This document shows positions 22,723 to 27,429 of a stretch of DNA of 38,680 bases, in pieces. Under the pieces are notes generated by a model, which ran no database searches, was not told where the DNA came from, and was given only the letters and a program-made list of their open reading frames with translations. The translations under genes and the position numbers were made by a program. Source of the DNA: Burkholderiales bacterium (GTDB taxonomy: Bacteria; Pseudomonadota; Gammaproteobacteria; Burkholderiales; JABEVD01); NCBI GenBank assembly GCA_013044025.1, contig JABEVD010000095.1, positions 1 to 38,680 of the forward strand, written 5' to 3'. The number at the start of each line of letters is the position of its first letter. The first letter of the stretch is position 1.

Positions 22723-23478
22723 TTAGCGTGCCGCTGCGCGGCAAATTTCGTTGAATTCGCCCGATACCAGTGACGCGCCGCCGATCAGGCCGCCGTCGAT
22801 GTCGGGCATGGCAAAAAGCTCTTCCGCATTGGAAGCTTTCACGCTTCCGCCATACAGGATACTGATTTTTGCAGCCACTTCCGCATTCAGGCTCGCGATG
22901 CGATTGCGCAGGAACGCATGCACTTCCTGAGCCTGCTCAGGCGTAGCCGTCCTGCCGGTTCCGATCGCCCAGACCGGCTCGTAGGCAATGACGGAATGGG
23001 CCAACGCTTCCGCGCCGACATACCCGGTCACTGCGTCCAGCTGCTCGCCGACCACCTTCTCGGTGATCCCGGCTTCGCGCTCGGCAAGCGACTCGCCCAC
23101 GCAAAGGATCGGAACAAGTCCGGCATCGACCGCCGCCTTGAACTTCTCGGCGACCGTGACACTGGTCTCGCCGAAGATCGCCCGGCGCTCGGAATGTCCG
23201 ATGATAACATAGGTTAGCCCGAAATCCCTGAGCATCGACGCCGAAACTTCTCCCGTATACGCACCCTTGTCGTACTGGGAAAGATTCTGCGCGCCACTGA
23301 AGACATGGGTCCCGGAAAGCTCACCCTGCAGCTGAAAGAGATATGGAAATGGCGAACAGACCACGCAGGTCACACCTTCGAGACCCGCCGTACCTGAAAC
23401 CACCCCTTTCAGAAGCGCTTCGTTGAGCGCCAGACTGCCGTTCATCTTCCAGTTGCCGGCAACAATCTTGTTACGCAT
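22723..23478 (-). CDS. tpiA: triose-phosphate isomerase
   Basis: TpiA interconverts dihydroxyacetone phosphate and glyceraldehyde 3-phosphate in glycolysis and gluconeogenesis. The 251-residue protein has the catalytic residues K11 (GNWKMNG), H95 (IIGHSERR) and E167 (AYEPVWAIGTG), plus the phosphate-binding ILYGGSVKASN and GLIGGASL loops. The ORF track begins 19 codons earlier; the ATG at 23478 fits the family and has AAGGAT at Shine-Dalgarno distance. A strong promoter lies just upstream, divergent to the pstS promoter. Confidence 0.97.
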   Translation of the reverse strand: MRNKIVAGNWKMNGSLALNEALLKGVVSGTAGLEGVTCVVCSPFPYLFQLQGELSGTHVFSGAQNLSQYDKGAYTGEVSASMLRDFGLTYVIIGHSERRAIFGETSVTVAEKFKAAVDAGLVPILCVGESLAEREAGITEKVVGEQLDAVTGYVGAEALAHSVIAYEPVWAIGTGRTATPEQAQEVHAFLRNRIASLNAEVAAKISILYGGSVKASNAEELFAMPDIDGGLIGGASLVSGEFNEICRAAAR

Positions 23479-23506: not shown

Positions 23507-23535
23507 ATATTACCTTTGAAAGCCTCACTGGTCAA
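23507..23535 (-). promoter_or_regulatory. sigma-70 promoter of tpiA-secG
   Basis: On the minus strand TTGACC and TAATAT are separated by exactly 17 bases. The start codon of tpiA is 28 bases past the -10. The -35 abuts the outermost Pho-like half-site of the divergent pstS promoter. Confidence 0.78.
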
Positions 23536-23557
23536 TTGTCATGATCTTCATCTCCCC

Positions 23558-23591
23558 CTGTAACATTATTGCAATATCCACAGGATATGAT
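23558..23591 (+). promoter_or_regulatory. Pho box and -10 of the pstS promoter
   Basis: CTGTAAC-ATTA-TTGCAAT (23558-23575) resembles the PhoB direct repeat CTGTCAT-N4-CTGTCAT: 5 of 7 and 4 of 7 matches in the half-sites, with an AT-rich spacer. A TATGAT -10 (23586-23591) follows after 10 bases, the usual distance when PhoB replaces a -35. A further half-site TTGTCAT lies in the same 11-base register at 23536. PhoB control is inferred from these and from pstS. Confidence 0.65.
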
Positions 23592-23609: not shown

Positions 23610-23630
23610 GGATCTGCAAAGCGCAGATCC
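23610..23630 (+). other. hairpin in the pstS leader
   Basis: GGATCTGC pairs with GCAGATCC (8 bp) around the loop AAAGC, about 30 bases before the pstS start codon. It lacks a T-run and leaves the AAGGAA ribosome-binding site free, so a 5' stabiliser is more likely than an attenuator. Confidence 0.55.
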
Positions 23631-23660: not shown

Positions 23661-24710
23661 ATGTTCGCAAAGAAAAGCCGCAATCTGATCCTTGCTTCCG
23701 CCATCGCCTATGGCATGAGCGTCACCGCAGCCTTCGCCACCGACATCACCGGCGCTGGCGCAACCTTCCCCTACCCGATCTATTCCAAGTGGGCTGAAGC
23801 CTACAAGGCCAAGACCGGCATCGGTCTCAACTATCAGTCGATCGGCTCCGGCGGCGGTATCAAGCAGATCAATGCGAAGACGGTGGATTTCGGCGCATCC
23901 GACATGCCCCTCACTTCCGATGAGCTCAACAAGGACGGCCTGATGCAGTTCCCGGCCGTGATGGGCGGTGAAGTGCTGGCAGTGAACCTGCCCGGCATCA
24001 AGAAGGGTGAAATCAGGCTGAACGGCAAGATCATCGCAGACATCTATCTTGGCAAGATCACCAAATGGAACGACCAGGCCATCCGCGCGGTCAACAAGGG
24101 CGTGAACCTTCCCGACATGAAGATCTCCGTGGTTCACCGTTCCGACGGTTCGGGCACCACCTTCATCTTCACCAATTATCTTTCCAAAGTCAGCGGCGAC
24201 TGGAAGAGCAAGATCGGCATGGGCACCGCGGTCAAGTGGCCGGTGGGTGTGGGCGGCAAGGGCAATGAAGGCGTTGCTTCCTACGTCCAGCGCATCAAGG
24301 GTTCGATCGGCTATGTCGAATATGCTTATGCGCTGCAGAACAACATGATCTACACCCAACTGCAAAGCCACGACGGCACCTTCCTGATGCCTTCGAGCGA
24401 AACCTTCCAGGCAGCGGCTGCCGGCGCGGACTGGGCGCATGCGCCCGGATTCTACGAAATCCTCACCAACGAGGAAGGCAAGAGCTCCTGGCCCATCACC
24501 GGCGCCACCTTCATCCTGATGCACACCTCACAGGAAAAGCCGGCGAACGCCAAGGAAGTGCTGAAGTTCTACTCCTGGGCCTATGACAACGGCGCCAAGA
24601 TGGCCGAAGAGCTGGTTTACGTGCCGATGCCCAAGTCGGTCGTCGACCTGATCAGGTCTTCCTGGAAGGAAAAGATCAAGGATACTTCCGGAAAATCGGT
24701 CTGGAACTGA
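23661..24710 (+). CDS. pstS: phosphate ABC transporter substrate-binding protein PstS
   Basis: PstS captures phosphate in the periplasm for the Pst importer. The 349-residue precursor has a signal peptide (basic MFAKKSR, hydrophobic core, cleavage near AFA-TD at about 26) and the family blocks ITGAGATFPYPIYSKWAEAY, DFGASDMPLT, RSDGSGTTFIFTNYLSKV and VKWPVGVGGKGNEGV, which hold the phosphate-binding residues. The ORF track starts 40 codons earlier, in the promoter region; the ATG at 23661 has AAGGAA and begins the signal peptide. A probable Pho-box promoter precedes it and a GC-rich hairpin separates it from pstC. Confidence 0.97.
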   Translation: MFAKKSRNLILASAIAYGMSVTAAFATDITGAGATFPYPIYSKWAEAYKAKTGIGLNYQSIGSGGGIKQINAKTVDFGASDMPLTSDELNKDGLMQFPAVMGGEVLAVNLPGIKKGEIRLNGKIIADIYLGKITKWNDQAIRAVNKGVNLPDMKISVVHRSDGSGTTFIFTNYLSKVSGDWKSKIGMGTAVKWPVGVGGKGNEGVASYVQRIKGSIGYVEYAYALQNNMIYTQLQSHDGTFLMPSSETFQAAAAGADWAHAPGFYEILTNEEGKSSWPITGATFILMHTSQEKPANAKEVLKFYSWAYDNGAKMAEELVYVPMPKSVVDLIRSSWKEKIKDTSGKSVWN

Positions 24711-24738: not shown

Positions 24739-24760
24739 AGGGGCCATTCCGGCCCCTTTT
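24739..24760 (+). terminator. hairpin with T-run between pstS and pstC
   Basis: AGGGGCC pairs with GGCCCCT (7 bp) around ATTCC, followed by TTT and AA. It is a short-tailed terminator, probably leaky, which would let pstS exceed pstCAB expression. It begins 28 bases after the pstS stop codon. Confidence 0.65.
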
Positions 24761-24776
24761 AATTGCAACTTCGACA

Positions 24777-25742
24777 ATGATAACCAATTCAAAATCTGAA
24801 TCCAGGGAAAAATATCAGGCTTTCATCGATGCAGGCTTCAAGCACACGACGAGATTCTTCGCCTTTGCGGTACTGGCGCTTCTTGCCGGAATCATCGCGG
24901 AGCTTTTTATCGGCGCACTCCCTTCCATCAAGGCTTTCGGCTTCGGCTTTTTCACCAGTTCCGACTGGGATCCCGTAAACGTACAGTTCGGCTCGCTGGT
25001 TTCGGTCTACGGAACCCTTGCCACTTCGCTCATCGCCATTCTGATCGGCATTCCGGTCAGCTTCGGCATCGCGCTTTATCTCACCGAGATTTCCCCACCC
25101 TGGCTGAAACGCCCTCTTGGCGTGGCCATCGAGCTTCTCGCCGGCATTCCCAGCATCATTTACGGCATGTGGGGACTTTTCGTGTTCGCGCCCAAACTTG
25201 CGGACACCCTCCAGCCATGGCTCATCGACCACCTCGGGCCCTTGCCGGTGATCGGCGTCCTGTTTCAGGGCGCGCCGATGGGCATCGGCATGCTGACCGC
25301 CGGCATCATCCTCGCGATCATGATCATTCCCTTCATCGCATCGGTGATGCGCGACGTTTTCGAGATCGTCCCCCCGACGCTCAAGGAATCGGCCTATGCG
25401 GTGGGTTGCACCACCTGGGAAGTGGTCTGGCATGTCGTGCTGCCCTACACCCGGATCGGTGTGGTGGGCGGAGTGTTGCTGGGCCTGGGTCGAGCGCTTG
25501 GCGAGACCATGGCGGTGACCTTCGTCATCGGCAATGCCCAGCATCTGAGTTTTTCCCTGCTCGATCCTGGCAGCAGCATCGCTTCCACGCTGGCCAACGA
25601 ATTCAACGAGGCTTTCGGAAAGGTGTATACTTCCGCCCTCATCGAACTCGGCCTCATCATGTTCCTCATCACTTTCGTCGTGCTTGCGTTCTCCAAGCTG
25701 CTGCTCTACAAGCTGAGCAAGCGCGAAGGCGAGAAATCCTAA
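24777..25742 (+). CDS. pstC: phosphate ABC transporter permease PstC
   Basis: PstC is one of two permease subunits of the Pst phosphate importer. The 321-residue protein has about six membrane helices, starting near residue 27, and the ABC-permease EAA-like loop around [31 protein letters not shown] followed by [16 protein letters not shown]. No clear Shine-Dalgarno precedes the ATG. It follows the pstS terminator hairpin by 16 bases and ends with a TAAGGAG overlap of its stop codon and the pstA ribosome-binding site. Confidence 0.96.
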
Positions 25743-25752
25743 GGAGCCGCCA

Positions 25753-26595
25753 ATGAATCTGTATACCAAAAGGCGGATCATCAACGCCGTCAACCTGTCC
25801 CTCTCCATGGCCGCCATGGCTTTCGGTCTGTTCTGGCTGGGCTGGATCCTCTGGACCCTGATCGATCATGGATTTTCGAGCATTTCCATGGATGTGTTCA
25901 CCAAGATCACGCCTGCGCCCGGCTCGAACGGAGGATTGCTGAACGCCATCGCGGGAAGCCTGTTCATGACGGTCGCGGGCATCGCGATCGGCACACCGAT
26001 CGGCATATTCGCCGGGATCTATCTCGCAGAATACGGGCAGCGCGGCTGGCTGGCTCCTGCCACGCGCTTCATCAACGACATCCTGCTTTCTGCGCCTTCG
26101 CTCGTGATCGGACTGTTCGTCTACCAGATCTTCGTCGCATCGACCCATCATTTCTCGGGCTGGGCCGGTTCCTTCGCGCTCGCGCTGATCGTGATTCCGG
26201 TCGTGGTCCGCACCACCGAAAACATGCTGAAACTGGTCCCCAACAGCCTGAGGGAGGCGGCCGCTGCCCTCGGCGCGCATCAATGGAGAGTGATTCTTTT
26301 CGTCACCCTGCGCGCTTCCAAGGCGGGTATCGTCACCGGCATCCTGCTCGCGCTCTCCAGGATCAGCGGCGAGACCGCGCCGCTGTTGTTCACCGCGCTC
26401 AACAATTCCTTCTGGAATGCGAACATGAATGCGCCGATGGCCAACCTGCCGGTGGTCATCTTCCAGTTCACGATGAGCCCTTATGACGACTGGCACAAGC
26501 TTGCATGGGTCGGCGCGCTCCTCATCACGTTCGGCGTGCTGGGGCTCAACATCCTGACCCGAGTGCTGTTCAGAAGCAAGACCAATCTACACTAA
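25753..26595 (+). CDS. pstA: phosphate ABC transporter permease PstA
   Basis: PstA is the second permease of the Pst importer. The 280-residue protein has about six membrane helices and the EAA-type loop [28 protein letters not shown] followed by [12 protein letters not shown], both family features. AAGGAG overlaps the pstC stop and sits seven bases before the ATG. It precedes pstB by 10 bases. Confidence 0.96.
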
Positions 26596-26605
26596 GAAAA
26601 CTGAC

Positions 26606-27379
26606 ATGGAATCGACAAAATCGCAAAAGGCCAAGATCGAGGTTCGCAATCTCGATTTCTATTACGGAAAATATCACGCCCTGCGCTCGATCAATCTTTC
26701 CATTCCGGAAAAGATGGTGACGGCCTTCATCGGACCATCCGGCTGCGGCAAGTCCACCCTGCTCAGGACCATGAACTGCATGTATTCGCTCTATCCTCAC
26801 CAGAGGGCGGCGGGTGAAATCGTCATCGACGGTGAGAACATTCTGGACGGCAAGCGCGACCTCAACAGCCTTCGCGCCAGGATCGGCATGGTTTTCCAGA
26901 AGCCCACCCCCTTTCCGATGTCGATTTACGACAACATCGCCTTCGGAGTGAAGCTGCATGAAAGGCTGAATCGCAGCGACATGGACGACCGCGTGGAATG
27001 GGCGCTCAAGAAGGCTGCGCTCTGGGACGAAGTGAAGGACAAGCTGAAGCAGAACGGAAACAGCCTTTCCGGCGGTCAGCAGCAGCGTCTTTGCATCGCG
27101 CGCGGCATCGCGGTGAAGCCTGAAGTGCTGCTGCTGGACGAACCGGCATCCGCGCTCGACCCGATATCGACCGCCAAGGTGGAAGAACTCATCACCGAGC
27201 TGAAAGACGATTACACCATCGTCATCGTGACCCACAACATGCAGCAGGCTGCGCGAGTCTCGGATTACACCGCCTACCTGTATCTTGGCGAGCTGATCGA
27301 ATTCGGTGAAACCACCTCGATCTTCACCACGCCGAAACAGAAGGCAACCGAAGACTATATCACCGGCAGATTCGGTTGA
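26606..27379 (+). CDS. pstB: phosphate ABC transporter ATP-binding protein PstB
   Basis: PstB is the ATPase of the Pst importer. The 257-residue protein has Walker [10 protein letters not shown] (43-51), the Q-loop [17 protein letters not shown], the signature [16 protein letters not shown], Walker [14 protein letters not shown] and the switch histidine in [14 protein letters not shown]. It is the last gene of the operon: no phoU follows, and the gene on the opposite strand ends 10 bases downstream, within a long inverted repeat. Confidence 0.98.
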
Positions 27380-27383
27380 TTTC

Positions 27384-27429
27384 CGAACGTTACCCGTGGG
27401 CGATGCGTCGCCCTTGCAGGTAACGTTCG
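27384..27429. other. 46-base inverted repeat at convergent pstB and GGDEF-EAL ends
   Basis: CGAACGTTACC and GGTAACGTTCG are perfect 11-bp arms 24 bases apart. The loop holds a nested hairpin, GGGCGA-TGCG-TCGCCC. It spans the stop codon and last 12 or so codons of the minus-strand gene and lies just past pstB. There is no T-run, so it is more likely a 3' mRNA structure for both transcripts than a classical terminator. Confidence 0.7.

Follow-up and report, generated by a model that had tools for sequence, protein, structure and literature searches.

A conserved Pho box points to a PhoB-activated pstS promoter back to back with an independent tpiA promoter in a Burkholderiales bacterium

The gap of 182 bp between tpiA (minus strand) and the pstSCAB operon (plus strand) contains two divergent sigma-70 promoters (Table 1). 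On the basis of sequence comparison, we conclude with high confidence that this region holds a canonical PhoB-activated pstS promoter, beside a divergent housekeeping promoter that serves tpiA independently. The whole stretch of DNA analysed, of 38,680 nucleotides, is here called the window; the genome to which it belongs is betaproteobacterium-like. Ordinary activation of pstS by PhoB, which the preliminary description had put forward, is very likely, because the PhoB (Pho) box and its spacing to the -10 element are conserved, PhoB and PhoR are both encoded in the genome, and the same layout precedes phoB. The comparison itself establishes the box, its spacing, its conservation and the presence of the regulators.

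Table 1. Coordinates of the features in and around the tpiA–pstS gap (window numbering)
Feature	Position	Strand	Evidence
tpiA, triose-phosphate isomerase	22723..23478	-	NCBIfam TIGR00419, 214 bits (cut-off 130.6); ATG at 23478
tpiA promoter	23507..23535	-	Promoter scan; -35 TTGACC 23535-23530, 17-bp spacer, -10 TAATAT 23512-23507
PhoB-like half-site TTGTCATG	23536..23543	+	In register, -22 from the box; 7.8 bits, P=6e-4
PhoB (Pho) box CTGTAACATTATTGCAATAT	23558..23577	+	Two direct-repeat half-sites, 11-nt period; matrix 21.7 bits
pstS -10 TATGAT	23586..23591	+	8 nt past the 20-nt box, 10 nt past the last 7-nt repeat
pstS 5' leader hairpin GGATCTGC-AAAGC-GCAGATCC	23610..23630	+	8-bp perfect stem; fold z=-2.56
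pstS, phosphate-binding protein	23661..24710	+	NCBIfam NF008171, 478 bits (cut-off 339); ATG at 23661
pstC, pstA, pstB	24777..27379	+	NCBIfam TIGR02138, TIGR00974, TIGR00972, each above cut-off

Three half-sites had been described in an 11-base register, and they were read as TTGTCAT at 23536-23542, CTGTAAC at 23558-23564 and TTGCAAT at 23569-23575, with offsets of 22 (23536 to 23558) and 11 (23558 to 23569) that confirm the register. The distance of 10 bases from the last half-site to TATGAT and the contact of the first one with the tpiA -35, which abuts position 23536, were likewise borne out. The two promoter-proximal half-sites (P=3e-5 at 23558 and P=5.5e-4 at 23569) make up the box CTGTAACATTATTGCAATAT. 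We built a PhoB matrix iteratively from the regions preceding pstS in the relatives, excluding the window; sites above 7 bits were taken from 101 of the 103 regions, giving the consensus TTGTAATAATTCTGTAACAT and an information content of 20 bits. Scanning with this matrix singles out the pstS box, which scores 21.7 bits against 8.8 bits for the runner-up site in the window and 17.0 bits for the top scorer among 2 million random 20-mers, so that the pair of half-sites far exceeds what chance would give. Most relatives have a stronger second half-site than TTGCAAT, and a manual count gives about five mismatches between the box and the E. coli consensus. Other genome-wide pattern matches with 2-3 mismatches are about as numerous as those of a control pattern (195 versus 167).

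The Pho box occupies the place of a -35 element, about 10 nt upstream of the -10, and stands before the phosphate-acquisition operon pstS-pstC-pstA-pstB. In 90 of 96 relatives the 20-nt box is separated by exactly 8 nt from a nearly invariant TAnnAT -10, which agrees with the published E. coli layout, where the box, described in the literature as two 11-nt direct-repeat units (PMC4415409), lies 10 bp upstream of the -10 (PMC1906773). The boxes of the relatives are mostly found about 60-110 bp before pstS. Within the genus, the tpiA–pstS gap was aligned for the window and six genus mates, and the seventh mate, G004, was scored separately and carries a Pho box too (22.2 bits). The alignment contains two invariant islands, one at the tpiA promoter (GGTCAA ... 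TTACC on the plus strand) and the other formed by TGTAACA-nnnn-TG-AA-AT followed by TA-GAT; every one of the seven genus mates with sequence retains the box together with its distance of 8 nt from the -10. The divergent adjacency of tpiA and pstS extends well past the genus, to 23 relatives (e.g. L009, L010, L012, L014, and L015).

PhoB is encoded in the genome (359 bits, cut-off 296), with the PhoR gene adjoining phoB (432 bits, cut-off 334) and the PhoU gene on a different contig (222 bits, cut-off 130). A comparison of the PhoB DNA-binding domain with 1gxp, the solved structure of the E. coli PhoB domain, gives E=1e-38, and the stretch rtvdvhirrlrkale is identical. Upstream of phoB we identified CTGTCACATTCCCGTAATAC (L119:6063-6082, G000:C174; 19.7 bits), followed by 8 nt and TAACAT, and thus the succession of box, 8-nt gap and -10 is common to phoB and pstS, having been found at phoB independently of pstS. 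Autoregulation of phoB through its own upstream Pho box is therefore predicted. At the phoU locus no Pho box scores above 6.3 bits. A Pho-box-like sequence, CTGTCACAATCCCGTCATA, lies on the minus strand at L150 (G000:C108:16101-16119), 73 bp before an ORF resembling a membrane transporter, and a -10 at the usual spacing is absent beside it.

In the mechanism that we favour, phosphate limitation would lead PhoR to phosphorylate PhoB, and a PhoB dimer would then occupy both direct repeats of the box (23558-23577), which stands in for a -35, and recruit sigma-70 RNA polymerase to TATGAT at 23586-23591, with the pstSCAB transcript probably starting at about 23598. In the opposite direction, tpiA and secG, which lies behind it on the minus strand according to curated models, would be transcribed from their own -35 and -10, and TTGTCAT at 23536 would be either coincidental or an additional half-site peculiar to this species, contributing at most weak additional PhoB binding.

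This layout resembles that of the E. coli pstS promoter, in which two direct repeats with an 11-nt period replace the -35, 10 nt upstream of the -10 and before pstSCAB, and, as in the E. coli PhoB/PhoR regulon, both PhoB and PhoR are encoded. It differs from E. coli pstS in the half-sites (TGTAAC/TGCAAT rather than CTGTCAT), in the location of phoU outside the operon, and in having tpiA as divergent neighbour. With the betaproteobacterial pstS boxes (101 loci) the window shares the motif and the 8-nt gap to TAnnAT, whereas its extra in-register half-site at -22 is present in only 7 of the 96 others.

The leader hairpin at 23610-23630 has one exact copy in the genome, and no counterpart was seen in the genus alignment. 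In the pstS–pstC intergenic region (24739-24766) a G+C-rich stem-loop is followed by T-rich sequence, and this is possibly a partial terminator, which could result in PstS being in excess of PstCAB. The pst operon stops at pstB without phoU (27379-27390), and its neighbour is a convergent gene for a GGDEF/EAL protein.

The lone upstream half-site at 23536 is above chance at a suggestive level (P=0.0006). The intervening half-site expected at 23547 (TTCATCTC) is absent (P=0.62), which rules out an array of three consecutive repeats: the arrangement consists of a single full box and a detached half-site, and a second complete box is lacking, since of its two half-sites the one at -22 is present and the one at -11 is missing. 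All seven genus mates with sequence lack TTGTCAT at this position. Across the 96 other boxes, a half-site exactly 22 bp upstream occurs in seven, whereas the background rate at the other offsets is 1.03% (binomial P=6.5e-5, or about 0.005 once the 70 offsets are allowed for), and -22 is the most populated upstream offset. These seven loci belong to differently labelled organisms, have a likewise poor -11 half-site and are mostly away from tpiA, a scatter suggesting that in-register extra half-sites may be gained now and then and do not form a stable part of the promoter. We regard the -22 excess as a weak lead.

The tpiA side was compared in the window and 23 relatives with a divergent tpiA less than 400 bp from pstS. 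The window and 21 of the 23 relatives, 22 loci out of 24, have a recognisable -35 of the form GTCAA/GGTCAA, which lies 12, 19, 22 (the window), 30 and up to 204 bp from the Pho box (median 61). None of the 22 tpiA promoters has a full PhoB box, the best score being 2.3 bits, in the window, with mostly negative values elsewhere, and no overlapping PhoB site conserved in the relatives was found at tpiA. Judged across this set, tpiA has a conserved promoter that is independent of the Pho box. Selected control of tpiA by PhoB would predict either a fixed geometry or a box; neither is seen, so such control is unsupported, and a conserved form of it was rejected on the variable spacing and the boxless tpiA promoters of the relatives. 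The proposal that PhoB could block tpiA-secG, linking phosphate supply to triose-phosphate flux, was thus not upheld, given the drifting distance and the absence of the half-site from the genus mates. AGGTAATA, which lies on the minus strand at the -10 of tpiA (P=0.003), was considered as a repression site like that of E. coli phoB and rejected, as no 11-nt partner was visible by eye and the sequence is explained as a plain tpiA -10, TAATAT/TAACAT.

As to what the half-site at 23536 represents, we lean slightly towards chance: the first two T's of TTGTCAT would derive from the AATT that often trails the conserved tpiA -35 block GGTCAATT, a block followed by CC in most genus mates, with GGTCAATTGTCATG present in the window only, although the P value was obtained at a pre-specified register position. 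The half-site shares strand and register with the box, and the scattered -22 excess lies mostly away from tpiA, so it could instead raise PhoB occupancy and strengthen pstS activation only, leaving tpiA unaffected; we hold this to be possible but rather doubtful, with the partner at 23547 missing and the half-site not conserved in the genus. An effect on tpiA would require PhoB at 23536, binding cooperatively with the main box, to sterically hinder RNA polymerase, so that tpiA-secG transcription would fall under phosphate starvation in this species. The register, the abutment on the -35 and the exact -22 half-sites of the relatives speak for this, as does the auto-repression of E. coli phoB, a precedent for repression by weak PhoB half-sites at a promoter (PMC6194859). 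That site, however, covers the -10 with two antisense half-sites, whereas the window has a single half-site, which adjoins the tpiA -35 on its upstream side. With an incomplete second dimer site, no half-site in any of the seven genus mates, the variable distance to boxless tpiA promoters, and no report of PhoB controlling tpiA among the papers searched, we consider such hindrance unlikely. Since E. coli PhoB can repress by covering a promoter (PMC6194859), repression of tpiA-secG is possible in principle, as a low-probability and at most species-specific mechanism; that the half-site was gained beside the tpiA -35 to create a divergent phosphate switch, repressing tpiA-secG while activating pstS and absent from the genus mates, is very improbable.

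If PhoB did control tpiA, a glycolytic/gluconeogenic step would come directly into the Pho regulon, but the comparison counts against this as a general feature. The preferred reading, a PhoB-activated pstS promoter beside an independent tpiA promoter, confirms the textbook PhoB–pstS design in uncultured betaproteobacteria, and the analysis yields a usable betaproteobacterial Pho-box matrix.
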